From Methylohalobius crimeensis 10Ki (GTDB lineage Bacteria > Pseudomonadota > Gammaproteobacteria > Methylococcales > Methylothermaceae): a DNA stretch of 64,000 bases. The position numbers were made by a program, and so were the translations under genes. Below, one piece after another: positions 26,500 to 43,483 of this stretch; the first letter of the stretch is position 1; each line of letters opens with the position of its first letter. The notes beneath the pieces were generated by a model that did not search any database, was not told the DNA's origin, and saw only the letters and a program-made list of their open reading frames with translations. The stretch spans positions 1,674,001 to 1,738,000 of the forward strand of contig NZ_ATXB01000001.1 of NCBI RefSeq assembly GCF_000421465.1, given 5' to 3'.

Positions 26500-26850
26500 A
26501 TGCTGTCACTGGTACAATTTTTTAAATGTCTTTCCGACGATACGCGTCTGCGCTGCGTGACGTTGCTGCATCAGGAAGGTAAGTTATGCGTCTGCGAGTT
26601 GACGACGGCGCTGGCTCTGTCGCAGCCGAAAATCTCGCGGCACTTGGCCTTGTTGCGTCAATCCAGTCTGTTGCTCGACAGCCGCGAAGGGCAGTGGGTT
26701 TATTACCGGATCAACCCGAATTTGCCATGGTGGGCCTATCCGCTGCTCGATGATGCATTGAAGGCGGTGCAAGCGAGTGAATCCTTCGGAAACGATCTGG
26801 ATCGCCTGAGGCAAATGGATTGCCGTCCGGACATGGCGGTTTGCGGCTAA
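26500..26850 (+). CDS. arsR: ArsR-family arsenic-responsive repressor
   Basis: 116-residue winged-helix repressor of the SmtB/ArsR family. The helix-turn-helix segment is LALSQPKISRHLALLRQSSLL and the wing is REGQWVYYRINP. The metalloid site is the CxC pair in KLCVCELTTAL at the start of the DNA-recognition region, as in E. coli ArsR; the third Cys of that protein (here Thr) is missing, and a further Cys pair near the C terminus could stand in. It should release the ars promoter on binding As(III). First gene of the arsenic island. Confidence 0.93.
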   Translation: MLSLVQFFKCLSDDTRLRCVTLLHQEGKLCVCELTTALALSQPKISRHLALLRQSSLLLDSREGQWVYYRINPNLPWWAYPLLDDALKAVQASESFGNDLDRLRQMDCRPDMAVCG

Positions 26851-26872
26851 AAATTTTGTTCATTATATATGC

Positions 26873-26884
26873 ATATTCGAATAT
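26873..26884. promoter_or_regulatory. Second ArsR operator, between arsR and arsI
   Basis: The palindrome ATATTCGAATAT is repeated exactly here, 26 bases before the arsI start. Two identical operators suggest a second ArsR-controlled start, or extra repression, for the resistance genes downstream of arsR. Confidence 0.6.
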
Positions 26885-26909
26885 CAATTTATCAAAATGA
26901 GGATTTGCA

Positions 26910-27401
26910 ATGAAAAGGTTACATATTCACCTGTCGGTCGATGATCTGGAAAAAAACATCGCGTTTTACAGCACGCTATTCGGCAGTGAGCCGGCCGTGC
27001 GGCACGAGGATTATGCAAAATGGTTGCTCGACGATCCGCGCGTCAATTTCGCGATTTCGAACCGCAGCCAACAACTCGGTCTCGATCATCTAGGCATACA
27101 AGCAGAGAACGAGCAGGAACTCGCGGCGATCAAGCGGCAGCTCGACGCGACGCAAGCGCCGATCGAGGCTCAGGAAGGCGCGGCCTGCTGCTATGCACGA
27201 TCCGACAAATACTGGGTCACCGACCCGCAAGGCATTGCTTGGGAATCCTTTCATTCCTTGAGAGAGATTCCGACTTTCAACGACGCGAAAGCCGCCTCCG
27301 ACGGCGAAAATCCATTCGTGTGCCGCCCGGCTGAAAAGTCGTCGTCGAGCTGTTGCCCCAATCCTACGACTGAAAATATCGAATCATCTTGTTGTGGCTA
27401 G
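26910..27401 (+). CDS. arsI: ArsI/CadI-family VOC protein (organoarsenical C-As lyase type)
   Basis: 163-residue vicinal-oxygen-chelate protein. The first half (LHIHLSVDDLEKNIAFYSTLFG) and DHLGIQAENEQEL supply the VOC metal His/Glu residues; SDKYWVTDPQGIAWESF carries the third. The vicinal Cys pair in AACCYARSD matches the pair that binds trivalent organoarsenicals in ArsI, the Fe(II) dioxygenase that cleaves C-As bonds. The C terminus adds CCPNP and SSCCG Cys clusters, likely metal-binding. CadI-type cadmium-induced relatives share the fold, so the substrate is inferred from ars neighbours. Confidence 0.82.
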   Translation: MKRLHIHLSVDDLEKNIAFYSTLFGSEPAVRHEDYAKWLLDDPRVNFAISNRSQQLGLDHLGIQAENEQELAAIKRQLDATQAPIEAQEGAACCYARSDKYWVTDPQGIAWESFHSLREIPTFNDAKAASDGENPFVCRPAEKSSSSCCPNPTTENIESSCCG

Positions 27402-27444
27402 AGACCAGGCTGTCATTTCCACTTGTCGGCCGGAGGATAAGCCC

Positions 27445-27564
27445 ATGAATGCATTCTGGAAAACCGAGTCCGGCACCTTGCTGGCGGTGTGTTCTGGCGC
27501 CGTGTTGCCGTTGTACGCAGGCATTCTTACAAAATCTAAACTAACCAGGAATTCAGCATGTTGA
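27445..27564 (+). pseudogene. Remnant of an ArsP/DUF318-type permease
   Basis: A 39-codon frame reading FWKTESGTLLAVCSGAVLPLYAGI before diverging. The segment resembles the conserved CSxxVLPLFAGI region of DUF318/ArsP permeases, which in intact proteins is followed by GPAxNxLA-type helices. Those are missing; the frame ends within the start of arsC. It sits where an arsP gene is expected in such islands, so it is probably what a deletion left behind. Too short for certainty. Confidence 0.5.
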
Positions 27565-28037
27565 ATGTATTTGTGATTTGTACCGGCAATTCCTGCCGCA
27601 GCGTCATGGGCGAAGCCCTGTTCAATCATCACGGCCAGGGCCGCATTCGGGCCTTTTCGGCCGGCAGTCATCCGATCGGCCGGATCAACCAGGGCGCGCT
27701 GGCGACTTTGAAACGCCACGGCTTGCCGACCGAAGGCTATCAAAGCCAGTCTTGGGAAGATTTCGAGCATCAGCCGATGGATATCGTGATCACGGTTTGC
27801 GACAGTGCGCACGGCGAAACCTGTCCGGTCTATCTGACCAAGGCGGTGCGGGCGCATTGGGGCGTGTCCGATCCGGGGCATGTCGAAGGCACCGAGGAAG
27901 AAAAAATCGCCGCGTTCGAGCAAACCTTCGCGACGCTGGAATTGCGCGTCAAGACCCTGCTGGAATTGCCGTTGGAAACGATGCCGCGCGATGAATTGAC
28001 CCGGAAACTCAACGAAATCGGCCAATTGACGGCTTGA
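27558..28037 (+). CDS. arsC: Arsenate reductase ArsC, low-molecular-weight phosphatase type
   Basis: 159 residues of the LMW protein-tyrosine-phosphatase-like arsenate reductases. The P-loop CTGNSCRS (CX5R) is near residue 9, and the second redox Cys is in [14 protein letters not shown] near residue 80-90. It reduces As(V) to As(III), using thioredoxin or a similar thiol, for export by Acr3. The ATG at 27558 overlaps the permease remnant. Confidence 0.93.
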
Positions 28038-28056
28038 GAGCCGACGAGGAGAGGTT

Positions 28057-29382
<1,326 letters not shown>

Positions 29383-31285: not shown

Positions 31286-32665
31286 TCACTTGACGACGTG
31301 CTCCAAATGGTATTTTTGAATTCGGTAGCGCAGGGTTTCGCGGGTCGTCTTAAGCAGGCGGGCGGCAGCGGTGACGTTGCCGGAGGTCTGAGTCAGGGCG
31401 GTTTCGATGATGCGCCGTTCCATCTCATCCAGGGACAGGCTGCCGTCCAGGGGAAGGCGAACGGTACTGTCGTCGTCCAGGGGAGGTGTCGTCCCCGGGA
31501 GTCCCAGCCATTGGTGGGGGAAAATTTCGTCTTCGGCGAGGAGGACGCAGCGTTCGATCAGGTTGCGAAGTTCACGCACGTTGCCGGGCCAATGGTAACG
31601 TTCGAAGGCCGACCAGGCGGCTTCCGGAATCTCTCGGACGCGTTTGCCGGCTTTGGCGTTGAATTCTTCCACCAGCATGGGTACCAGTATTTGCAGGTCT
31701 TCCTTGCGTTCCCTGAGGGGTGGGATTTCCACTTGAAAGACCGTGAGGCGGTGATATAAATCCCCTCGAAAATGTCCGGTTTCCACTTCTTTGGCCAAAT
31801 CCCGGTTGGAAGCGGCGATGATCTGAACGTCCACTTGGATATCCCGCTCGCCTCCCAGCAGCCGGAAGCGTTTGTCCTCCACCGCCTTGAGCAATTTGGC
31901 CTGAATTCCCGGATCCAGCTCGCCGATTTCGTCCAGAAACAAAGTGCCGCCGTCGGCCTGTTCCAGCAAGCCGTGATGGCGGTTTTTGGCACCGGTGAAG
32001 GCCCCGGGCTCGTAACCGAAAAGCTCCGATTCCACCAGATCTCGAGGAAGGGCGGCGCAGTTGAGCTCGACCCAGGGTCCCTGCCGTCGCAGTCCGTTGT
32101 GGTGAAGCACCCGTGCCGCCAACCCCTTACCGCTCCCGGTCTCGCCTTGGATGACCAGGGAAGAGAAGGGAAGCTGGGCGAGACGTTCGAGCAACTGGCG
32201 CAATTTTACCGTGCGGGGGCTGGCGCCGGCGAACACCGCCGGCGTGTAGCGGGCATTGCCTTGGGCGGCTTCGAAGGCAAGGCGCCGTTGGGCGTGAGCG
32301 CTGCGGGCGGCGCTCTCCAACAGGAGCTGCAGGCGGCTGGGATCGCAGGGTTTTTCCAGGAAATCGTAGGTGCCCAAGCGTAAGGCGCGCACCGAGTCGG
32401 CGACGGTGCCGTAACCGGTAAGAAAGATCCATTCGCATCCGGCATGGTGTCCGCCCAATTTCTCGAAAAAGTCCAGGGCGTTCCCGTCCGGCAGATTCAT
32501 GTCCGACAATACCACCAAGGGCTCAAGTTGTTGATCGTCCAGCAGCTGTCTGGCCTCGCGCAGATTTCGGGTCAGCCAAACCTCCCACTCCAGCTTTCGA
32601 TAATGGTGCGCCAGTTCTTTGCCGAGCAGGATTTCATCTTCGATGATCAGGAGTGAATTGCGCAT
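31286..32665 (-). CDS. Sigma-54-dependent response regulator, NtrC family
   Basis: 459 residues: receiver domain (about 1-120; phospho-acceptor Asp in VLSDMNLPDG, Lys in FLEKPCDP), AAA+ domain (about 150-380) with Walker A GETGSGKG, the sigma-54 contact loop GAFTGA, and Walker B GTLFLDEIGEL, then a Fis-type helix-turn-helix (GNVTAAARLLKTTRETLRYRIQKY). It overlaps the kinase gene by 19 bases. It is the last gene of the block beginning with SulP, whose promoter looks sigma-54 dependent, so it probably controls the whole block. Confidence 0.95.
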   Translation of the reverse strand: MRNSLLIIEDEILLGKELAHHYRKLEWEVWLTRNLREARQLLDDQQLEPLVVLSDMNLPDGNALDFFEKLGGHHAGCEWIFLTGYGTVADSVRALRLGTYDFLEKPCDPSRLQLLLESAARSAHAQRRLAFEAAQGNARYTPAVFAGASPRTVKLRQLLERLAQLPFSSLVIQGETGSGKGLAARVLHHNGLRRQGPWVELNCAALPRDLVESELFGYEPGAFTGAKNRHHGLLEQADGGTLFLDEIGELDPGIQAKLLKAVEDKRFRLLGGERDIQVDVQIIAASNRDLAKEVETGHFRGDLYHRLTVFQVEIPPLRERKEDLQILVPMLVEEFNAKAGKRVREIPEAAWSAFERYHWPGNVRELRNLIERCVLLAEDEIFPHQWLGLPGTTPPLDDDSTVRLPLDGSLSLDEMERRIIETALTQTSGNVTAAARLLKTTRETLRYRIQKYHLEHVVK

Positions 32666-34035
32666 GGTATCTCCACGATGACTCGAGCCCCTTGCGGTTC
32701 AGAGGGAGCCAGTTGCATGCGACCGTCAAGGGAGGAGACGAATCGCTTGACCATCAGCAGACCGAGACCGGTGCCGCCGGCGCGACCGCTGGCGAAGGAG
32801 CGAATACCGTTCTTTAATAGCTCTTCCGGGAAACCGGGGCCGTCGTCGCTGACGGTAAGGACCAGTCGATCTTGGTTTTGGTGGGTTTCGATCCAAATAT
32901 TGCCCGGTTTCTCATTCAGAACCTGGGCGGCGTTCAACACCAGATTGATCAAGGCCTGGCGCAGGCCGGTCTCCGGCAGGCGGGCTTTTACCTCCGGCAT
33001 GCCGCTATAATGAAGTCGGATTGCGTCGGGGACTTGGTATCGAAGGAGCGCTAATATCTCGCGGATAACCGAGTCGATATGGATCTCCTTGATCGGTTCG
33101 GGTTGATGGCGGGCTTGATCCAGCAATTGATTCAGATGCCGTCCCAGGCGATCCAGTTCGGTAATGATGAGATTGAAACGTTGTTGGTTTTCCGGGTCGG
33201 CGCACTCGGCGCGCAAATTGTGGAGCGCCAATTGGATGCCGGCCAAGGGATTGCGCAGCTCATGCGCGATGCCGGCGGCCACTTCGCCCACCGCCGCCAG
33301 ACGCTCGGCCCGGGCCAGGTCCTGGCTTTGGGCCAGCAAAGTGCGGGCGGCGGCGCTGACTTGCGCCTCCAGGGAGCGAGTATGTGCCTGACGGGCCTGC
33401 TCCAGGGCGGCCAAGCGGGTCACCATGCGGTTGTAATTGGAGATGAGCGTGCTCCAGGGCGGGACCTTTTCCGGAATCGGGATCGGTTCGAAGCGACCTT
33501 CCTCGAGACGGAGCAGGAGCTTGCTCATTTTTTTGAGGGGAGTAAACACCCAATGTTTGGCCAGCAGGATCCCCAGCCCCAGGAGCACGATCAATGCGGC
33601 GGTTCCCATCAAGGCTGCTTCCAGTTCCAGGTGGGTATCGTAAACCACCTTGGCCAAGAGGTTGCGTTCGTTGGTGTTTTCCTGTTCCAGTAAGTTTTGA
33701 AGACCTTGTATCGCCGCTTCCAGCCGCTCTTGGGTGGGGCGTTCCAGAAGGCGTTGCATGGGCGAAACCGGTAGTTGCAACCTTCCCCTCGCCAATTTCG
33801 ATAATTCGGCTTGCAGGCGGTCCCGTTCGGCTGAGTGGATGGTGTCGGATGATAGTTGCTGGAGACGATGTTCGATGGCTTGGAGGCGATTGACTTGGCC
33901 GACGGTTTGTTCGACCTGGTGGATTCGTTCCAGATTGCGCCAGGTCAACGCGACGAAGGCGGTGAGCACCAGCAGGAGCGCTAAGGTTAGAATCGCGCCG
34001 CTGATCAGAATCGGCCGATAAAGTAAAAGTCTCAC
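32647..34035 (-). CDS. Sensor histidine kinase
   Basis: 462 residues. A first helix (about 8-30), a periplasmic helical sensor part (about 31-140), a second helix (about 142-162), a HAMP-like linker, then the kinase: H-box GIAHELRNPLAGIQLALHNL, N-box ALINLVLNAAQVL, G1 DDGPGF and G2 GTGLGL. The sensor shows no named domain, only a helical bundle of the four-helix type. It begins 35 bases after the small-subunit gene stop, so it is read with the complex. Signal unknown; the neighbours suggest membrane energetics or inorganic carbon. Confidence 0.93.
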   Translation of the reverse strand: MRLLLYRPILISGAILTLALLLVLTAFVALTWRNLERIHQVEQTVGQVNRLQAIEHRLQQLSSDTIHSAERDRLQAELSKLARGRLQLPVSPMQRLLERPTQERLEAAIQGLQNLLEQENTNERNLLAKVVYDTHLELEAALMGTAALIVLLGLGILLAKHWVFTPLKKMSKLLLRLEEGRFEPIPIPEKVPPWSTLISNYNRMVTRLAALEQARQAHTRSLEAQVSAAARTLLAQSQDLARAERLAAVGEVAAGIAHELRNPLAGIQLALHNLRAECADPENQQRFNLIITELDRLGRHLNQLLDQARHQPEPIKEIHIDSVIREILALLRYQVPDAIRLHYSGMPEVKARLPETGLRQALINLVLNAAQVLNEKPGNIWIETHQNQDRLVLTVSDDGPGFPEELLKNGIRSFASGRAGGTGLGLLMVKRFVSSLDGRMQLAPSEPQGARVIVEIPCAIHS

Positions 34036-34070: not shown

Positions 34071-34628
34071 TTACGGCCCAAGTGATTTTTCCAAAAGTTG
34101 GTCACATTTCTTTCCGTTGTTGTCGATCGCAGAAAGTATTCCCGCCAGTAAAGTCGCAGGCGAAGGCGGGCATCCGGGTATTTTGACGTCCACCGGGATG
34201 ACGTTTTCCACCGCGCCGCAACTGGCGTAAGAGACGCCGAATTCGCCGCCGCACCCGGCGCAGTCGCCACAGGCGATCACCCATTTGGGAGCGGGCATGG
34301 CGGTGTAGGCTCGTTTGAGGGCCGCCTCCATATGCCGGGAAACCGGCCCGGTCACCAAAAGGATGTCGGCATGGCGAGGAGAGGCGACAAAATGAACCCC
34401 CAAGCGTTCGATGTCGTAATACACGTTATTGAGGGCGTGGATTTCCAATTCACAGCCGTTGCAGGAGCCGGCATCCACCTCGCGGATGGCCAGGCTGCCG
34501 GCGAATTTCCGGTCCACCCGGCGTTTGACTTCGATGCCCAGGGTTTCCACCTCCGGGTCGCGCAACAGCTTTTTGACCGATTCGGTCTTGATGCCGGTCT
34601 TGAGGATTTTCGGGTAAAGTAGCCGCAT
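34071..34628 (-). CDS. hyfI: NuoB/HyfI-type small subunit of hydrogenase-4-like complex
   Basis: 185 residues. Ligands for the proximal [4Fe-4S] cluster are seen in GSCNGCELEIHALNN, the GDCAGCGGEFGVSYASCG stretch and IPGCPPSP, as in NuoB, HycG and HyfI. The first 45 residues are a basic extension. Cysteines are complete here, in contrast to the large subunit. Gene order with its neighbours (B-C-E-F-G-I) matches E. coli hyf minus A, D, H and J. ATG 34628, 33 bases after the large-subunit stop. Confidence 0.9.
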   Translation of the reverse strand: MRLLYPKILKTGIKTESVKKLLRDPEVETLGIEVKRRVDRKFAGSLAIREVDAGSCNGCELEIHALNNVYYDIERLGVHFVASPRHADILLVTGPVSRHMEAALKRAYTAMPAPKWVIACGDCAGCGGEFGVSYASCGAVENVIPVDVKIPGCPPSPATLLAGILSAIDNNGKKCDQLLEKSLGP

Positions 34629-34661: not shown

Positions 34662-36266
34662 CTACAAATCCGCGCCCGAATAGGAACCGTTGATCGATTT
34701 GTTGCATACCGGAAAGTCCGGCACGATGTTGTCCAGGATCAACTGTTCCAGGGCCGGCCAGTTGAGCCAACTGGGATCGCGCGGGAAATATCGGTCGATC
34801 AGGCCGCCTTCGCCGAAGCGGACATAGGCGACGGTTTCGCCCCGCCAGCCTTCCACGATACCCAAGCCTTCGGCGCCGGCCTCAGGGGGGCGCCATTTCG
34901 TGCGGGTCGCCCCGTCGGGAAGCCGCCCCTGCAGGACCCGTAACAGGCGCATCGCGATCCGGATCTCCTTGTAGCGGACCCAAAAACGCGAACCCACATC
35001 CCCGCTTTCCTCCACCGGCACCTTGACCGTCAACTGATCGTAGGGGGGATAAGCCGCGTTGCGGCGTACGTCGAAGTCCTGGCCGGAGGCGCGGCCCACG
35101 TATCCCAGGCAACCGAGATCGGCGGCAACTGCGGCCGACAGGACGCCGGTGGTGTATAGGCGGTCGCCAAGGGAAGCGTTGCGATCGACGATCGTCAATA
35201 GCTCATCCAGTTCTCGTCCCAGTTGGGTCAGCGCGGCGTCAAACGGTTGAACTTGGGCGGGATCGAGATCGATATTCACCCCGCCCGGCACGATCCGGTC
35301 CATCAGCAGGCGGTGACCGAATACGGCCCGGTTGTCCCTGAGCCAATTCTCGCGCAGCCGGCCGAACTGATAGTGGGCGAACGCGAATCCCACGTCGTTG
35401 CAGATCGCTCCCAGGTCCCCGAGATGATTGCCGATCCGCTCGCGCTCGGCGAGGATCGCGCGCAGGAAGGCCGCGCGCGGCGGGATCTCGATCCCCGAGG
35501 CCCGCTCGCACGCCATGGCCGCGGCGAAGGCGTGGCCCACGGTGGTGTCGCCGGAGACCCGCCCGGCCAGTTTGACCAATCCTGCCGCGTCGCGGCTTTC
35601 GGCGATTTTCTCGATGCCCTTGTGGACGTAGCCGAAACGTTCCTCGAGGTTGAGGACGGTCTCGCCCACCGCCTGGAAGCGGAAATGGCCGGGTTCGATG
35701 ATGCCGGCATGGATTGGTCCCACCGGAATTTCATAGACGCCGGCGCCCTTGGCCTGGATAAAAGGATAATCCTTGTCCGGCGGCGTCTCTTGCCGCCCGC
35801 TATCCGGATCGGCAAGCCGATCGCCGGAAGCGGGATAATCCTTGCGCAGCGGATGGACGTGTTCCGCCCACGCTTGGTGGCGGGTCCAGCGGCGCGCATC
35901 GGGATGATCGGTGAAGCGGACGCCGAGTAGATCCCGGCTGTGGCGCTCGCTGCGGTCGGCGGCGGGATAATGGGGGGCCTGGGAGGGCAGTTCCGGCTTT
36001 TCCGCCGGCACCTCGGTTCTTAGCAGCAGATAGCGTCCGTTCAGCTCCAGCAGGGCATTGATGCGCAGGCACTCGGTTAGGTCTTCCCCCCACCCGGTGC
36101 TCCAGCGCAAGCCGCGGGCTTTAGCCGCAAGCGCGCACCGGCCCCAGTCGGCCGCAGGAACGGCGAGGATTTCCGCAGGGGGCAGGGGGCTTCCCCTTTT
36201 CAAAGCAATCCCTTCGTTTTCCAGGGTGGAGAGAAAATCCGGCAGGGAGTGTTCCTTTTGTGTCAT
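34662..36266 (-). CDS. hyfG: NuoCD/HyfG-type large subunit lacking NiFe-ligand cysteines
   Basis: 534 residues: an N-terminal NuoC-like domain (about 1-150, with HPLRKDYP near its end) joined to a NuoD/hydrogenase large-subunit domain (about 185-534; YVHKGIEKIAESRDAAGL, ERERIGNHLGDLGAIC). In NiFe enzymes the metal is held by two CxxC pairs. Here the first reads RVSGDTTVGH and the second region reads NKSINGSYSGAD, so all four Cys are gone. It cannot hold a NiFe centre, which places the complex with the 'energy-converting hydrogenase-related' (Ehr) group. I took ATG 36266 (MTQKEHSLP), overlapping the upstream gene by ATGA; the frame extends to 36500 without meaning. Confidence 0.9.
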   Translation of the reverse strand: MTQKEHSLPDFLSTLENEGIALKRGSPLPPAEILAVPAADWGRCALAAKARGLRWSTGWGEDLTECLRINALLELNGRYLLLRTEVPAEKPELPSQAPHYPAADRSERHSRDLLGVRFTDHPDARRWTRHQAWAEHVHPLRKDYPASGDRLADPDSGRQETPPDKDYPFIQAKGAGVYEIPVGPIHAGIIEPGHFRFQAVGETVLNLEERFGYVHKGIEKIAESRDAAGLVKLAGRVSGDTTVGHAFAAAMACERASGIEIPPRAAFLRAILAERERIGNHLGDLGAICNDVGFAFAHYQFGRLRENWLRDNRAVFGHRLLMDRIVPGGVNIDLDPAQVQPFDAALTQLGRELDELLTIVDRNASLGDRLYTTGVLSAAVAADLGCLGYVGRASGQDFDVRRNAAYPPYDQLTVKVPVEESGDVGSRFWVRYKEIRIAMRLLRVLQGRLPDGATRTKWRPPEAGAEGLGIVEGWRGETVAYVRFGEGGLIDRYFPRDPSWLNWPALEQLILDNIVPDFPVCNKSINGSYSGADL

Positions 36267-37738
36267 CGGGGGATATCTCCGCTGATCAGTTGAGCCGCAT
36301 GATCGAACCAGTTCGCCAGGACGTCGGGAATGGCCAGTCCCAACCACAAAACCAGGGTCAGATGAATGAAGACCGGTAGCATGTTCGCCCGGACCGGTTG
36401 CTGGTTTTCCGGCCTTGCCCCGTATACCATCGGATGCAGATGCTTGAACAGGCCGGCGAAGGCGATCCCGATGCCGGCCAAAACCGGCAGGGTCAGCCAC
36501 GGGAAGGATTTCATGGTGGCCACCAGCACCAGGAATTCACTCACGAACACCCCGAATGGCGGAAAACCGGCAATCGCCAGGGTTCCGATGAGCAGTCCCC
36601 AACCCACCGCCGGCTGGGTGGCGAGCAGGCCGCGGATTTTGGGTATGAACTGCGTGCCGGCGATATGCGAGGCGTGACCGACGGTGACGAAGATCGACGA
36701 TTTGGTCAGGGAATGGGTGGTCATGTGCATCAGCGCGGCGAAGGTGGCCAGGGGTGTGCCGATGCCGAAGGCGAAGGTCATCATGCCCATATGCTCGATG
36801 GAGGAATAACTGAACAGGCGTTTGATGTCCCGCTGGCGGTGGAGAAACAGCGCCGCCACCAGAAAGGAGATCAGCCCGAAACCCATCATCAGAAACCCTG
36901 CGAGATTATCGGACAAGGCTTGATCGACGATCATCTTGCTGCGCACGATCGCATACAGGGCATCGTTGAGCAGCAACCCCGACAGAATGGCCGACATGGG
37001 CGTGGGGCCTTCCGAGTGGGCGTCCGGCAGCCAGCTATGCATGGGCACCAGACCCACCTTGGTGCCGTATCCCACCAGTAAAAACACGAAGGCGATCTTC
37101 ATCACCGTCGGATCGAGCTCGGCGGCGTGGGTATAGAGGGTGGTCCAGGTGAGCGCCTTGCCGCCGATGCCCAACACCTGGGAAGCGGCGAAGTAAAGCA
37201 AAATGGTTCCAAACAGGGCCTGGGCGATGCCGACGCCGCAGAGAATGAAGTATTTCCATGCCGCTTCCACCGATTCCGGCGTCCGGTAAAGGCTGACCAG
37301 GAGTACCGTGGCCAGGGTCGCGCCTTCCATCGCCACCCACAAGATGCCCATGTTGTTGGTGACCAGAATCAGGTACATGGCGAGCATGAAAGCCTGATAC
37401 ATGGCGTAATAGAGCCTGAGTCGCCGATGGGTCAAGCGACCGATTTCGCGTTCATGTTCCATGTAGGGGGCGGAGAAGATTCCGGTGGTCAGTCCCACCA
37501 GGGCGGTGAGGACGATCAGATAAACGCTGAAGGAATCCACCATCCACCAACGGTCCGCCGACAGGAAGGTGCCCATACGGAGGACGGCCGCCGCCAGAAT
37601 CAGCGAGACGACGAAGGTGGCGGTGTTGAGGAGATTGTTGATACGCGCCGCCATGGGGCGGTCACCCAGCCACGCCAAGCCGAATACCCCCCCCAGAGGA
37701 ATCAAAAGAAGCCCGTACAATGCAATCATTGCAATCAT
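36263..37738 (-). CDS. hyfF: HyfF/NuoN-like proton-pumping membrane subunit
   Basis: 491 residues, about 14 membrane helices, Proton_antipo_M domain. Antiporter-type segments include FLLVGYGTKVGLVPMHSWLPDAHSEGPTPMSAILSG (with the conserved Lys and His) and RLFSYSSIEHMGMMTFAFG. This is one of the two large pump-like subunits of the complex. ATG 37738 overlaps the hyfE stop by ATGA. Confidence 0.93.
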   Translation of the reverse strand: MIAMIALYGLLLIPLGGVFGLAWLGDRPMAARINNLLNTATFVVSLILAAAVLRMGTFLSADRWWMVDSFSVYLIVLTALVGLTTGIFSAPYMEHEREIGRLTHRRLRLYYAMYQAFMLAMYLILVTNNMGILWVAMEGATLATVLLVSLYRTPESVEAAWKYFILCGVGIAQALFGTILLYFAASQVLGIGGKALTWTTLYTHAAELDPTVMKIAFVFLLVGYGTKVGLVPMHSWLPDAHSEGPTPMSAILSGLLLNDALYAIVRSKMIVDQALSDNLAGFLMMGFGLISFLVAALFLHRQRDIKRLFSYSSIEHMGMMTFAFGIGTPLATFAALMHMTTHSLTKSSIFVTVGHASHIAGTQFIPKIRGLLATQPAVGWGLLIGTLAIAGFPPFGVFVSEFLVLVATMKSFPWLTLPVLAGIGIAFAGLFKHLHPMVYGARPENQQPVRANMLPVFIHLTLVLWLGLAIPDVLANWFDHAAQLISGDIPR

Positions 37739-38427
37739 TTTTCTTCCTCGCCTTCATACAGATGGCTCAGGCGGTTGAGCCGGTCCACGTCCAGAGAGTC
37801 GATGCTTTCGCGGATCTGGAAGAAAAACACCCCGAAAATGACCGCCCCCACCATGACGTCGAAAGCGATCCCCAATTCCACCACCAGCGGCATGCCGTAG
37901 GTGGACACCACCGCCAGGAAGAACAGGGCGTTTTCCATCGCCATGAATCCGATGACGTGACTGATCGCCTGGCGGTGGGAAATCATCAGCAACATGCCCA
38001 ACAGGAACGAGGCGGTGCTGGTGGCGATGATATTGCGGGTACTCAGTTCCGACAGATGGATCGCCGGCAGGATAATGTAGTAACTGAACACCATGAGCGA
38101 GGCTGCGCCCAACAGAAGCCCCAAGGGACGGATGACCCGGTCTTCCTGGCGATGGAGGCCCAATCGCACAATGAACCAGTGGAGCATGAACGGAATCAGC
38201 GCCGCTTTCAAAACCAGGGTCAGCCCGGCCGAAATGAACAGGTGCGGGGTGGCATGCACAAATCCCACCAGGGCCGTCGTTGCCGCGAGCAGCCCGCCCT
38301 GGAGCGCGAACAATTTGACCAGGTTCACCAGACGGGTTTGGGCCAGCATGACAAACGAGGTGAACAGCACCAACGCCGCCAGGAGAAACACCGTTTGGTC
38401 GTATATCGGATTCAACGCTTCTTCCAT
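37735..38427 (-). CDS. hyfE: HyfE-like membrane subunit
   Basis: 230 residues, six to seven membrane helices, with the NuoK-like part in the C-terminal half (GFMAMENALFFLAVVSTYGMPLVVELGIAFD, read in parts, with its conserved Glu residues). It corresponds to HyfE of hydrogenase-4. I take the ATG at 38427 (MEEALNPIY), which shares a base with the hyfC stop (TGATG); an upstream TTG at 38430 would add one Met. Confidence 0.9.
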   Translation of the reverse strand: MEEALNPIYDQTVFLLAALVLFTSFVMLAQTRLVNLVKLFALQGGLLAATTALVGFVHATPHLFISAGLTLVLKAALIPFMLHWFIVRLGLHRQEDRVIRPLGLLLGAASLMVFSYYIILPAIHLSELSTRNIIATSTASFLLGMLLMISHRQAISHVIGFMAMENALFFLAVVSTYGMPLVVELGIAFDVMVGAVIFGVFFFQIRESIDSLDVDRLNRLSHLYEGEEEK

Positions 38428-39368
38428 CAACCGACCTCCAAAATCACGTGGGTGAGCATGCCGAGCAAAGCGAGCAGGTAAGCGAATCCCAAAAACAGGG
38501 GCGCCCGAAACAGACGCATCTTGGCCAAAGCGGCTTCCGCCAGGACCAATATCACGGCGAGTGCGGCTAGTTTAAGGGTGATAATCAAAGCCCCCCGGCC
38601 CAGTTCGGGAAGAGCGAAGGTTTCGGCCAATCCCTGGGGAATGAAGATGTTTGCCAGCAAAACCGCGTAGATCATCAACCGGATCTGGGCCGCCCATTCG
38701 ATCAAGGCCAGATGGCGGCCGCTGTATTCCAAAATCATCGCCTCATGGATCATGGTCAGTTCCAGGTGGGTGGCGGGGTTGTCCACCGGAATCCGTCCGG
38801 TTTCGGCGACGGTGACCAGCGCGAGTCCCAATCCGGCGAACAGGAATGAAGGTCGGACCATTAAAGGTTGATGCAGCAGGGATTCGATCGCCGCCGACAA
38901 ATTGGTGGTGGACATGGAGACCGCCAGGGTGAACACCGCCATCAACATGGCCGGTTCGGCGAGCGAGGCGATGGTCATCTCCCGTGAAGCCCCCATGCCG
39001 CCGAAGGCGGTGCCGATATCGAGTCCGGCAAGGGCCTGGAAGAAACGGGCCAGAGCGAAGAATCCCACCAGCACGATCACGTCGGCCATGGCCGAGGTCG
39101 GCAGGTGGACCGCCATCAGCGGGACGATGGTGGCGGCGAGCACCGCGACGGCGAAAATGAGGTAAGGCGCCAGATAAAAAACCCAAGACGCCCCCTCGGC
39201 GGCCACGGTTTCCTTGCGCAGCAGCTTGGCCAGATCCCGATAGGGTTGCAGCAGCGAAGGCGCCCGGCGGTTCTGGGACCAGCATTTCAGTTTCTTGATC
39301 CAACCCGAAAGCAAGGGAGCGGCGGCTACGAACAGTAATACTTGAACCAAGTTCAACAACCAAGCCAT
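38427..39368 (-). CDS. hyfC: HyfC/NuoH-like membrane subunit
   Basis: 313 residues, about eight helices, NADHdh/NuoH family. Family segments are QPYRDLAKLLRKETV, FQALAGLDIGTAFGGMGASREM and ETGRIPVDNPATHLELTMIHEAMILEYSG (read in parts), which links the peripheral arm to the membrane arm. The ATG at 39368 shares a base with the hyfB stop (TGATG). The frame is open to 39509 and has an ATG at 39383 that would add five residues. Confidence 0.92.
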   Translation of the reverse strand: MAWLLNLVQVLLFVAAAPLLSGWIKKLKCWSQNRRAPSLLQPYRDLAKLLRKETVAAEGASWVFYLAPYLIFAVAVLAATIVPLMAVHLPTSAMADVIVLVGFFALARFFQALAGLDIGTAFGGMGASREMTIASLAEPAMLMAVFTLAVSMSTTNLSAAIESLLHQPLMVRPSFLFAGLGLALVTVAETGRIPVDNPATHLELTMIHEAMILEYSGRHLALIEWAAQIRLMIYAVLLANIFIPQGLAETFALPELGRGALIITLKLAALAVILVLAEAALAKMRLFRAPLFLGFAYLLALLGMLTHVILEVG

Positions 39369-41551
39369 CAGCTGATTACCCATAACAGAAGAATCAAAGT
39401 GAAAAAGGAATAACCCAGATAGACGCGAATGTTGCCGGTCTGGATTCTTCCCACCTGTCGAACCGCTCCCGTGACCGCCCGGGCAACCGGGGCATAGAAA
39501 ATCAGCCACAGTCGATCGCTCACGTGGAGACGATAGCGAATACGCCTGACATTTCCGGCCTCGGGGTCCGGGGCGTTTTTTTCGACTGCCTCATTCACCA
39601 CGAAAGCGTCGGCGAAGATGCGTCTGAGGGGCATGGCGAAGGCGCTGGCAGTATATTCCATGCGCGGGGTAAGCTCTCCGAAACCGCAATCCCAGGGGTA
39701 GGCGCGGCGCACGGACGCGCGCGGACGCAACCAGCGATAAGTGAGCATCCACGCGATGCCGATCGCCAGAAGCACCCAAAGGGCGGCATAGGAAGCCTGT
39801 TCCGGCGCCACCGGTGACAGCCACAGCCAGCCGCGGCCGGCGGTTTTCGGCAGGCCGGCCCCGGTCAGTTCGATCGCCAGATTCTCCAGCAGACCGACCA
39901 GCGGAGTGGGCAACACGCCGAATACCAAACACAGTCCCGCCAGCCAGCCGATGCCGAGCAGGGAAGCGGTGGATTGAACTTCGCGCGCGCGCCCTGCGTG
40001 ATGGCTGCGCGGTTGGCCCAAAAAAACGACCCCGAACACCTTGACGAAGCAGGCCGCCGCCAGTCCCCCCGTCAGGGCGAGCATGGCCGCGGTGACCGGG
40101 ATGAAGCTGCGGAGCACGCCGCTTTCCAGAGCCGAGACCTGCAGCGCGGCCTGATAGGTCAGCCATTCCGACACGAAGCCGTTGAAGGGCGGCAGTGCCG
40201 AGATACTGAGGCAACCGATCAGAAACAAGCCTGCGGTGATCGGCATGCGATGGATTAGCCCGCCCATCCGCTCGAGGTCGGATTCGTGGGACTGCTGCAG
40301 GATCGCCCCCGCCCCCAGGAATAAAAGGCTCTTGAAGAGAGCGTGGTTGAGGGTGTGATACAGGGCGGCGATCAGAGCGATGGCGCCCAGGGTCGGATGT
40401 CCGTTGCTGTAGAACAGGATGGCCAGTCCCAAGCCCATGAAGATGATGCCGATGTTCTCCACCGAGTGATAGGCGAGCAAGCGCTTGAGGTTGTGCTGCA
40501 TCAGGGCGTACAACACCCCCAGCACCGCCGAAGCGCTGCCGAGGACGAGCGCCGCCAGTCCCCACTCCCATTGAAGTTCCCCGACCAGGTCGAAGGTGAA
40601 GCGGATAAAACCGTAGACCGCCACCTTCAGCATCACCCCGCTCATCAACGCTGAAATATGGGAAGGCGCGACCGGATGGGCTTCGGGCAGCCAGGCGTGA
40701 AGCGGGACGATGCCGGCTTTCATGCCGAACCCGATCAGTCCCAGGGTGAAGGCGATCGAGGCCCACAGGGGCGTCAACGGCGCCGCTTTCATTTGGGCGA
40801 AGGTGAAGCCGTCGCCGAAACCCACCAGCACACCGTAGGCGAGGATGATGAACAAGGCGCCGATTTCGGCCATCAACAGGTAAATGAACGCCGCGCGCCG
40901 ATTTTCGGCTTTTTCGTGGGTATAGGCCACCAGAAAATAGCTCGCCACCGACATCAGTTCCCAGGCGATCATGAAGAAGAAGGCGTCGGCAGCGAGCAAT
41001 ACCAACTGCATTCCCGCCACGAATAGGCCGGTGGCGAGCGCGAGCACCGAGAGGGGATGGCGGCCGTGTTCGTATTCCCGCACATAGTGGGGACCGAACA
41101 AGGCGATCGCCACCAGCACCACGCTGACCACGCATAGAAAAAATCCGGACAAGGCATCCAGATGCAGGTGCCAGGCCAGAAAAGGGAGTCCCAACGGCAA
41201 GGCCAGGTCTTGAGAAACCGTGGCGATGAGAGCGGTTAGCCCGCCCCCCAGGCCCATCAAGCCCGAGAATCCCAGAAGTGCGAAGCTGACCTGCCGTAAA
41301 AGGCGGGGATTGCGGTCTGCCCCGAGACCGGCGAATCCCGAGGCGAGAGAGAGGCCCACCGCCAGCAAGCTGAATGGTAACGCGGACTGCGTGCCCGCGA
41401 TGACGACATAGCCCGCGGTCAGCGCAATTCCCAATCCCAGGCCGATGGCGATCGACAAATGGGCGCGAAGATAACTTGCGGCCGCCCCGATGCTCTGGAC
41501 GATCCGTCCCCGACCTGGATGGACCGAAGGGGTGAACGGTTCTTGATTCAC
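39368..41551 (-). CDS. hyfB: HyfB/NuoL-like proton-pumping membrane subunit
   Basis: 727 residues with about 16 helices; Proton_antipo_N and _M domains. Typical segments are HLDALSGFFLCVVSVVLVAI, FFMIAWELMSVASYFLV (the conserved TMH Glu), FGMKAGIVPLHAWLPEAHPVAPSHISALMSGVM in pieces, and HNLKRLLAYHSVENIGIIFMGLG. The C-terminal extension (Arg/Pro-rich, then two helices) is like HyfB. Start is GTG 41551 with GGAG seven bases upstream. It begins 161 bases after the SulP stop. Confidence 0.93.
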   Translation of the reverse strand: MNQEPFTPSVHPGRGRIVQSIGAAASYLRAHLSIAIGLGLGIALTAGYVVIAGTQSALPFSLLAVGLSLASGFAGLGADRNPRLLRQVSFALLGFSGLMGLGGGLTALIATVSQDLALPLGLPFLAWHLHLDALSGFFLCVVSVVLVAIALFGPHYVREYEHGRHPLSVLALATGLFVAGMQLVLLAADAFFFMIAWELMSVASYFLVAYTHEKAENRRAAFIYLLMAEIGALFIILAYGVLVGFGDGFTFAQMKAAPLTPLWASIAFTLGLIGFGMKAGIVPLHAWLPEAHPVAPSHISALMSGVMLKVAVYGFIRFTFDLVGELQWEWGLAALVLGSASAVLGVLYALMQHNLKRLLAYHSVENIGIIFMGLGLAILFYSNGHPTLGAIALIAALYHTLNHALFKSLLFLGAGAILQQSHESDLERMGGLIHRMPITAGLFLIGCLSISALPPFNGFVSEWLTYQAALQVSALESGVLRSFIPVTAAMLALTGGLAAACFVKVFGVVFLGQPRSHHAGRAREVQSTASLLGIGWLAGLCLVFGVLPTPLVGLLENLAIELTGAGLPKTAGRGWLWLSPVAPEQASYAALWVLLAIGIAWMLTYRWLRPRASVRRAYPWDCGFGELTPRMEYTASAFAMPLRRIFADAFVVNEAVEKNAPDPEAGNVRRIRYRLHVSDRLWLIFYAPVARAVTGAVRQVGRIQTGNIRVYLGYSFFTLILLLWVIS

Positions 41552-41712: not shown

Positions 41713-43422
<1,710 letters not shown>

Positions 43423-43465
43423 GCTTAGCATTCTCCTGCTCGAATCGAGATAACCGATTACAGAA

Positions 43466-43483
43466 AAGCAAGCGACGTGCCGA
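43466..43483 (-). promoter_or_regulatory. Sigma-54 (-24/-12) promoter upstream of SulP
   Basis: On the minus strand the sequence reads TCGGCACGTCGCTTGCTT. Against the consensus TGGCACG-N4-TTGCW it has a single mismatch (C for the first T), and the GG and GC pairs are exactly ten bases apart. The -12 element is about 46 bases before ATG 43422. An NtrC-type activator with an intact GAFTGA loop is encoded at the end of the same block. Confidence 0.75.

Follow-up and report, generated by a model that had tools for sequence, protein, structure and literature searches.

The hyf locus

The window, meaning the whole 64,000-nucleotide stretch of the Methylohalobius crimeensis 10Ki genome analysed here, carries on its minus strand a run of genes in the order SulP-STAS, hyfB, hyfC, hyfE, hyfF, hyfG, hyfI, sensor kinase and NtrC-type sigma-54 regulator. 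The features, from 5' to 3' of the presumed operon, are as follows.

43468..43482, minus strand: sigma-54-like -24/-12 element CGGCACGTCGCTTGC, one mismatch, 37-51 nt before the SulP ATG
41713..43431, minus strand: SulP-family anion transporter with STAS (Pfam Sulfate_transp and STAS), first gene of the presumed operon
39368..41551, minus strand: hyfB, antiporter-like membrane subunit (NCBIfam NF005086, hydrogenase 4 subunit B, 826 bits, cut-off 667)
38427..39386, minus strand: hyfC, NuoH-like membrane subunit, start taken at 39386 (Pfam NADHdh, 129 bits)
37735..38430, minus strand: hyfE, NuoK-like membrane subunit (NCBIfam NF008556, 76 bits, below the cut-off of 136)
36263..37738, minus strand: hyfF, antiporter-like membrane subunit (NCBIfam NF005045, hydrogenase 4 subunit F, 753 bits, cut-off 543)
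34662..36266, minus strand: hyfG (hyqG/ehrL), NuoC-NuoD fused large subunit of 534 aa without NiFe cysteines
34071..34628, minus strand: hyfI (hyqI/ehrS), small subunit with four cysteines for one N2-type [4Fe-4S] cluster and hydrogenase-type CxxC spacing
32647..34035, minus strand: sensor histidine kinase, directly 3' of hyfI (Pfam HisKA and HATPase_c)
31286..32665, minus strand: NtrC-type sigma-54 response regulator (Pfam Response_reg, Sigma54_activat and HTH_8)

In the ORFs of the window, the hyfG ATG at 36266 overlaps the stop codon of hyfF. Six genes in the order B-C-E-F-G-I are found at 64 of the 69 loci with enough flanking DNA; three loci match all six in another order (for one of the three, the apparent B could be a cross-match to F), and two miss one gene. 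Because automatic ORF maps miss genes on GC-rich loci, where antisense ORFs win, gene counts were redone, the six-gene counts by blastp on stop-to-stop frames and the SulP counts by tblastn. Elsewhere in the window, positions 26500-29382 hold an arsenic-resistance-like cluster (ArsR-like, Cys-rich glyoxalase-like, ArsC-like and arsenite transporter-like genes), named from translations only.

A large subunit without [NiFe] ligands

HyfG matches the Pfam domains Complex1_30kDa and Complex1_49kDa, with a weak match to NiFeSe_Hases at residues 216-281. The top PDB sequence by phmmer is HycE of the E. coli FHL complex (7z0s_E, 211 bits; runner-up 124). HycE is also the best structural match (Z 47.2, 2.1 Å over 519 residues) to an AlphaFold2 model of HyfG with a mean pLDDT of 89.5, low at residues 184-189, 212-214 and 531-534; the next matches are complex I 49 kDa subunits (Z 42-44, about 350 residues).

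In the alignment with HycE, the positions of C241, C244, C531 and C534 are occupied in window HyfG by S238, T241, S528 and G531. A sequence-only reading of this DNA had claimed that all four NiFe cysteines are gone from the large subunit, and the alignment bears this out; the two HyfG motifs quoted for it were correctly read. The same reading had named CxxC pairs elsewhere in the chain as evidence that would count against it. Window HyfG has six cysteines (44, 66, 253, 289, 386 and 521) and zero CxxC, so this objection falls away; CxxC does occur at other places in the chain in 6 of the 125 family rows, window HyfG not being among them. Window HyfG lacks the four cysteine ligands of a group 4 [NiFe] hydrogenase and the cleavable C-terminal tail of such enzymes, and blastp gave no match to the maturation protease HycI at 127 loci. 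In the 125 rows the chain never extends past the last window column, and in 3 of them it stops before it; HycE has 32 further residues there.

The absence of ligands is shared across the family. At the NiFe-ligand positions covered by each row, 120 of the 125 rows have no cysteine and 5 have one. The 125 rows comprise 120 that are distinct over window residues 171-440, the other 5 being genes reached twice; 3 of the 125 stop short of the C-terminal ligand pair, and the counts exclude six rows of greater divergence as well as three references from E. coli. Those six rows likewise lack ligand cysteines, one being cut before the C-terminal pair. The loss of the NiFe ligands is old and fixed, and not a product of chance.

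Residues beside the old ligands are strongly conserved. D240, N280, D284 and D291 are present in 120 of 120 distinct rows; N522, K523, S524, Y529 and D533 are present in all 117 distinct rows reaching the C-terminus, and N526 in 116 of these. At D240, N280, D284, N522, K523 and N526 the family is unlike HycE, HyfG and NuoCD of E. coli. S524 and D533 are common to all three of these proteins, Y529 is shared with HycE and HyfG, and D291 with NuoCD. D240, N522, K523 and N526 are thus new, (nearly) invariant residues beside the old ligands, and judged by sequence position they probably line the old pocket. Such strong constraint suggests that the family is under selection. A Cys-based replacement metal site was considered and rejected for the whole family because C289 and C521 are not universal: C289 is present in 82 of 120 distinct rows (non-Cys in 38) and C521 in 84 of 117 (non-Cys in 33), and zero cysteines are universal.

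The pocket also differs from that of complex I. The positions of E. coli NuoCD H224 and Y273, which we take to be the His and Tyr that bind the quinone head in complex I, are Ile in 125 of 125 rows and Gly or Ala in 122 and 3 rows, respectively (Ile190 and Gly239 in the window), so that window HyfG is without the quinone-head His and Tyr of respiratory complex I. The neighbouring NuoCD histidine, H220, is kept in 125 of 125 rows, yet it is also present in HycE. With the quinone-head His and Tyr replaced and H220 shared with HycE, a canonical quinone site is not supported.

Subunit composition

The sequence-only reading had also stated that the small subunit retains its Fe-S cysteines, and C56, C59, C123 and C153 of HyfI are each found in 118 or 119 of 119 aligned rows, a set that includes one uninformative, out-of-frame E. 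coli NuoB row. The best PDB sequences for HyfI are HycG (7z0s_G) and MbhJ (6cfw_J). Among the membrane subunits, HyfB keeps the channel residues Glu/Lys/Lys/Glu, as in E. coli HyfB, and HyfF has the same Glu and Lys channel residues as E. coli HyfF. The earlier assignment of the complex to the Ehr type is upheld by these results: a group 4-like large subunit without NiFe ligands, the small-subunit cysteines, and NuoH-like and antiporter-like subunits are all present.

Relatives of E. coli HyfA, HyfH, NuoI, HyfJ and HycI were not found by blastp at 1e-8 among ORFs of at least 60 aa at 127 loci; at 29 of these the flanking DNA available was limited to about 1.5 kb. Since HyfA, HyfH and NuoI are among the subunits not found, the six-subunit complex appears to contain just one Fe-S cluster. 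The NuoI subunit and NADH module of complex I are lacking from the window operon, and NuoI is absent from the matches at the 127 loci. What the operon encodes is a complex I core in a form close to group 4 hydrogenases.

Distribution of the family

A HyfG relative (E ≤1e-60) is carried by 44 of 369 sampled genomes of the class. A scan of named genomes confirmed at least 583 loci; the best 80 of these, a list skewed towards relatives of the window organism, come from methanotrophs, purple sulfur bacteria, rhizobia, Burkholderiales, Gallionellales, Nitrospirota, Mariprofundia, Geobacteraceae and others. The closest relatives among the matches listed are from Methylothermaceae methanotrophs, as they are in a quick tree of 63 rows. 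The complex is widespread, with Alpha- and Betaproteobacteria, Nitrospirota and Geobacteraceae also among the matches listed.

In the window genome (3.5 Mb, 99.4% complete), hyfG is the sole NuoD-family match. This genome also has HypD, a separate NiFe hydrogenase gene outside the hyf locus and two pairs of Rnf/Nqr genes; a Rnf/Nqr pair, HypD and a NiFe hydrogenase large subunit lie within 30 kb of one another (G000:C1:1242108-1271788). In 24 of the 44 carrier genomes there is no HypD match at 1e-40, which, genome incompleteness apart, indicates that the complex is independent of NiFe maturation in those hosts.

Two genome-level associations were considered as clues to a common role and rejected. 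nifH is found in 12 of 44 carriers and 19 of 325 other genomes (odds ratio 6, p 5e-5, kinship uncorrected). Given that nifH was not found in 32 of the 44 carriers, and has no match at 1e-100 in the window genome, N2 fixation is not the common role; the link is a trait of some members and does not define the family. RuBisCO is found in 22 of 44 carriers and 151 of 325 others (Fisher p 0.75, 369 genomes) after removal of 13 weak RuBisCO-like matches, with which the counts are 24 and 162 (p 0.63). Among the 30 closer carriers, 20 have RuBisCO (p 0.03); the window genome has no match.

Several gene types were seen alongside the family. Loci L117, L118, L121 and L128, from gammaproteobacterial genomes (G040, G207 and G358) that also carry the main family, hold a second, divergent group of Cys-less large subunits with motifs such as RVSGVGS... 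and NEASFGL..., and at L118, L121 and L128 the ORF after this gene has a ferredoxin-like CxxCxxCxxxC. Another Cys-less type, with the motif TIAGDT..., occurs at L094:1-2801 (which also has CNKSFDLSYCG) and L075:20311-21582, on the same contig as an adjoining normal main-family operon. A DUF2490 protein, assigned by Pfam on L063 alone and by similarity in the rest, is encoded at nine methanotroph loci (L033, L035-L039, L042, L051 and L063), 3' of hyfI in eight of them and upstream on the other strand in L042; the window is without it at that place.

A proposed ion-pumping oxidoreductase

Our first choice among the explanations, held tentatively, is that the operon encodes a Hyq-type (hyfBCEFGI, Ehr class) membrane oxidoreductase that has a single cluster and a low-potential partner, perhaps uses a quinone, pumps ions and, in methanotrophs, works in partnership with SulP. 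The likeliest role is that of an ion-pumping oxidoreductase, perhaps quinone-linked, and not of a [NiFe] hydrogenase. Under this proposal, the HyfI cluster, uncovered by any NuoI/HyfH subunit, would exchange electrons with a soluble low-potential partner, for which ferredoxin, flavodoxin or a docking dehydrogenase are candidates. The crevice enclosed by HyfG, HyfI and HyfC would bind the second redox partner, a small organic compound for which a quinone is the leading candidate. Electron transfer would drive the movement of H+ or Na+ through HyfC/E/B/F, reversibly. In methanotrophs, the complex would work with the SulP anion transporter encoded in the same, putatively sigma-54-controlled, operon.

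One-electron chemistry with a quinone-like molecule is favoured because the complex has a single Fe-S cluster and neither flavin nor metal is evident, although the canonical quinone residues are missing. The main channel residues kept in HyfB and HyfF were counted in favour of pump function. The missing NiFe ligands, the absent tail and the 24 of 44 carriers without a HypD match were counted against a NiFe enzyme. Three redox partners had been suggested by the sequence-only reading, and they fare differently. A quinone is possible, with Ile190 and Gly239 in place of the two quinone-head residues weighing against it. Ferredoxin is a possible donor, but a ferredoxin-like subunit was not found beside the operon. 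For a C1 carrier, the one hint, an indirect one, is the SulP transporter in methanotroph operons. No electron donor gene was found near the window operon, and a ferredoxin-motif scan of the loci returned 15 ORFs with CxxCxxCxxxC, of which just one, at the far end of locus L112, has two motifs.

The SulP transporter and inorganic carbon

By tblastn, a SulP match is present at 17 of 98 loci (L033-L130). At methanotroph loci, SulP is part of the operon or immediately precedes it in all 10 informative cases, these being the loci, among 14 classed as methanotroph by record title, where the contig covers the region before hyfB (the other four start inside the operon). In Methylocaldum (L057; on this genus see PMC10974252), SulP is located between hyfF and hyfG. 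Seven further loci (L043, L044, L059, L075, L079, L085 and L109) have SulP proteins mostly less like that of the window; in L075 the gene is between hyfG and hyfI, and in L059 it is on the opposite strand. In the literature, SulP with carbonic anhydrase is described for At. ferrooxidans (PMC6458275), and inorganic-carbon toolkits are reviewed in PMC10880623. A limited open-access literature search found no paper on a SulP-hyf link. The association is a gene-neighbourhood lead on function in methanotrophs, and SulP is not a general feature of the carriers.

These arrangements, including the other SulP types near the operon, are also consistent with a model in which the complex mainly energises the handling of anions or inorganic carbon (bicarbonate or formate), with SulP as its partner and a logic like that of NDH-1MS or DAB. 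The formate channel gene focB is located 3' of E. coli hyf. The A. caldus hyf cluster is reported to adjoin a beta carbonic anhydrase gene (PMC3826726). We consider the model unlikely, however, since a comparison of positions places SulP within 10 kb of HyfG in just 2 of 44 carrier genomes (one of them the window genome), RuBisCO is no commoner in carriers than in other genomes and has no match in the window genome, and the window SulP scores 111 bits against the BicA model, for which the cut-off is 880.

As to regulation, the window contains 61 matches to the sigma-54 element with at most two mismatches, against 67 expected, so the element at 43468-43482 is not significant alone. Good elements precede SulP at -47, -59 and -58 in the methanotroph loci L034, L041 and L042, respectively. 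A simple scan of 64 loci for sigma-54/NifA elements found a good element before hyfB in L057, a weaker one in L072 and one UAS-like match in L106. It found none before the rhizobial operons, and hence does not extend to them the NifA control described for Azorhizobium.

Formate and other dehydrogenases

Somewhat less probable again is a formate-linked pump (FDH-Ehr), in which formate dehydrogenase or another cytosolic dehydrogenase docks on HyfI. An FDH-Ehr complex has been proposed for Margulisbacteria (PMC6349859), and Ehr subunits of Geobacter sulfurreducens are reported to be more abundant on formate (PMC7894505). Docking of this kind is not what the gene neighbourhoods suggest: neither a HyfA-like linker nor a HyfH/NuoI-like subunit was found in the 127 loci, and there are no dehydrogenases among 19 scanned neighbour proteins, a small part of all neighbours. 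A domain scan of one neighbour, c62 of locus L107, returned no family.

Hydrogen metabolism in Azorhizobium caulinodans

Experimental evidence comes from A. caulinodans, where hyqRBCEFGI is described as encoding a respiratory "endo-hydrogenase" with NifA-dependent expression (PMC2650096, PMC3357923, PMC2930871). The sequence-only reading was incomplete in this respect, as operons of this six-gene kind had already been deleted and characterised there under the name Hyq. According to these studies, deletion of hyq slows diazotrophic growth by about a fifth and alters H2 release. A hupSL mutant with hyq intact was reported to release little H2, and a hupSL hyq double mutant much (PMC3357923 Table 2B; PMC2930871 Table 1). 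This pattern looks like hyq-dependent H2 oxidation. The Azorhizobium H2 data are the strongest evidence against our preferred explanation, as a non-hydrogenase does not easily explain them.

Sprecher et al. (2012, PMC3357923) state that HyqG from eight genera is without both CxxC motifs and treat the catalytic site as speculative, so the loss of the cysteines is already in print. The same paper calls three HyqG cysteines completely conserved; these are not universal in our wider set of 120 distinct rows. We located the A. caulinodans genome via a primer printed in PMC2650096. Its HyqG has 504 aa, is 44% identical to window HyfG over 443 aa, is without NiFe cysteines and branches inside the family in the quick tree (63 rows); the gene order is R-B-C-E-F-G-I. 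Besides HyqG, PF00374 finds only three genes in that genome, close together, which by their position we take to be HupV, HupL and HupK.

A hyqR-like regulator is not found directly 5' of window hyfB, where the gap to SulP is just 161 nt. A small, hyqR-like XRE-type regulator (80-117 aa) directly precedes hyfB at 14 of the best 80 of at least 583 loci; loci with such a regulator include L058, L061, L092, L099, L110 and L112, with Pfam tested on L099. Because of this frequency, hyqR is not taken as family-defining.

It is conceivable, if improbable, that the complex is genuinely a hydrogenase, of a novel type lacking NiFe, in which H2 is oxidised or made at the rebuilt pocket without nickel, Cys ligands or Hyp maturation. 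The A. caulinodans studies report that H2 release can either rise or fall when hyq is removed, and that a strain without the entire hup/hyp operon still recycles H2 fully (PMC2650096, PMC2930871, PMC3357923). HyqG there is a Cys-less member of the family, in a genome where PF00374 otherwise finds only the clustered genes. Interpretation is complicated by the fact that, by the published accounts, the evidence for activity is gas given off by cultures or nodules and not an assay of the purified complex. Moreover, no known metal site fits the pocket residues, C289 and C521 vary across the family as described above, against the three conserved cysteines of PMC3357923, and nifH is without a match (1e-100) in the window genome. 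Still harder to credit is the broader claim that the Cys-less Hyq complexes as a whole, that of the window among them, represent a fourth type of hydrogenase chemistry, without Cys ligands or [NiFe] maturation; if it were true, the Azorhizobium genetics would be literally correct. Least credible of all is the view that this is an ordinary [NiFe] hydrogenase whose ligands are merely atypical, or one in the course of decay. HypD and another NiFe hydrogenase gene in the window genome could be cited for it; against it stand ligands absent family-wide, no maturation tail, strongly conserved replaced residues and many carriers without a HypD match.

Azorhizobium is the one experimental system, and work on it assigns H2 chemistry to a protein without NiFe ligands. 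D240, N522, K523 and N526 are direct mutagenesis targets for this Hyq hydrogen puzzle, and the interest lies in the puzzle now being testable rather than in the loss of the cysteines itself.

Comparison with known systems

The window operon belongs to the Hyq/hyfBCEFGI type by its six genes B-C-E-F-G-I, its HyqG signature and its position in the tree. With Azorhizobium Hyq it shares the same six structural genes in the same order and the same HyqG signature. It differs in having SulP in front and a kinase and sigma-54 regulator behind, where Azorhizobium has hyqR before hyqB, and in a genome without a nifH match, where Azorhizobium Hyq is linked to N2 fixation.

Similar complexes have been described under other names. 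Ehr of comammox Nitrospira is reported to be without CxxC and of unknown function (PMC10284858), and Geobacter Ehr to be without the NiFe site (PMC13194489). hyfBCEFGI of At. ferrooxidans is classed as a non-hydrogenase (PMC7735108), a six-gene cluster having earlier been listed as a group 4 hydrogenase (PMC2621215). The six-gene cluster of Cupriavidus is thought not to serve lithotrophy (PMC2864759), and Nitrospira hyfBCEFGI adjoins CODH in one genome (PMC5596200). Compared by published description, the systems of PMC10284858, PMC7735108 and PMC13194489 are like the window's in having large subunits without a NiFe site or in being classed as non-hydrogenases, and Geobacteraceae and Nitrospirota homologues fall within the HyfG family tree (63 rows); the neighbour genes of the described clusters differ from those of the window. 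Calling the complex hydrogenase 4, as some genome papers do (for example PMC5596200 and PMC3826726), may lead to wrong conclusions about H2 or formate metabolism.

The resemblance to E. coli FHL-1 and hydrogenase-4 extends from HycE, the best match in fold and sequence, to counterparts of hyfB, C, E and F. In contrast, the four cysteines are intact in E. coli HycE and HyfG, which run on for another 32 residues at the C-terminus; the E. coli hyf operon further includes A, D, H and J (relatives of A, H and J were not found near the family in 127 loci), and hydrogenase-4 has three antiporter-like genes against two in the window operon. Complex I (NuoCD, NuoB) is similar in fold, N2-type cluster and antiporter-like subunits. 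It differs in that the window small subunit is closest to the hydrogenase type, two quinone-head residues are replaced, and the window operon is without NuoA, NuoE, NuoF, NuoG and NuoI. The window operon is a further case of the already described Ehr/Hyq type, the methanotroph form of which includes SulP.
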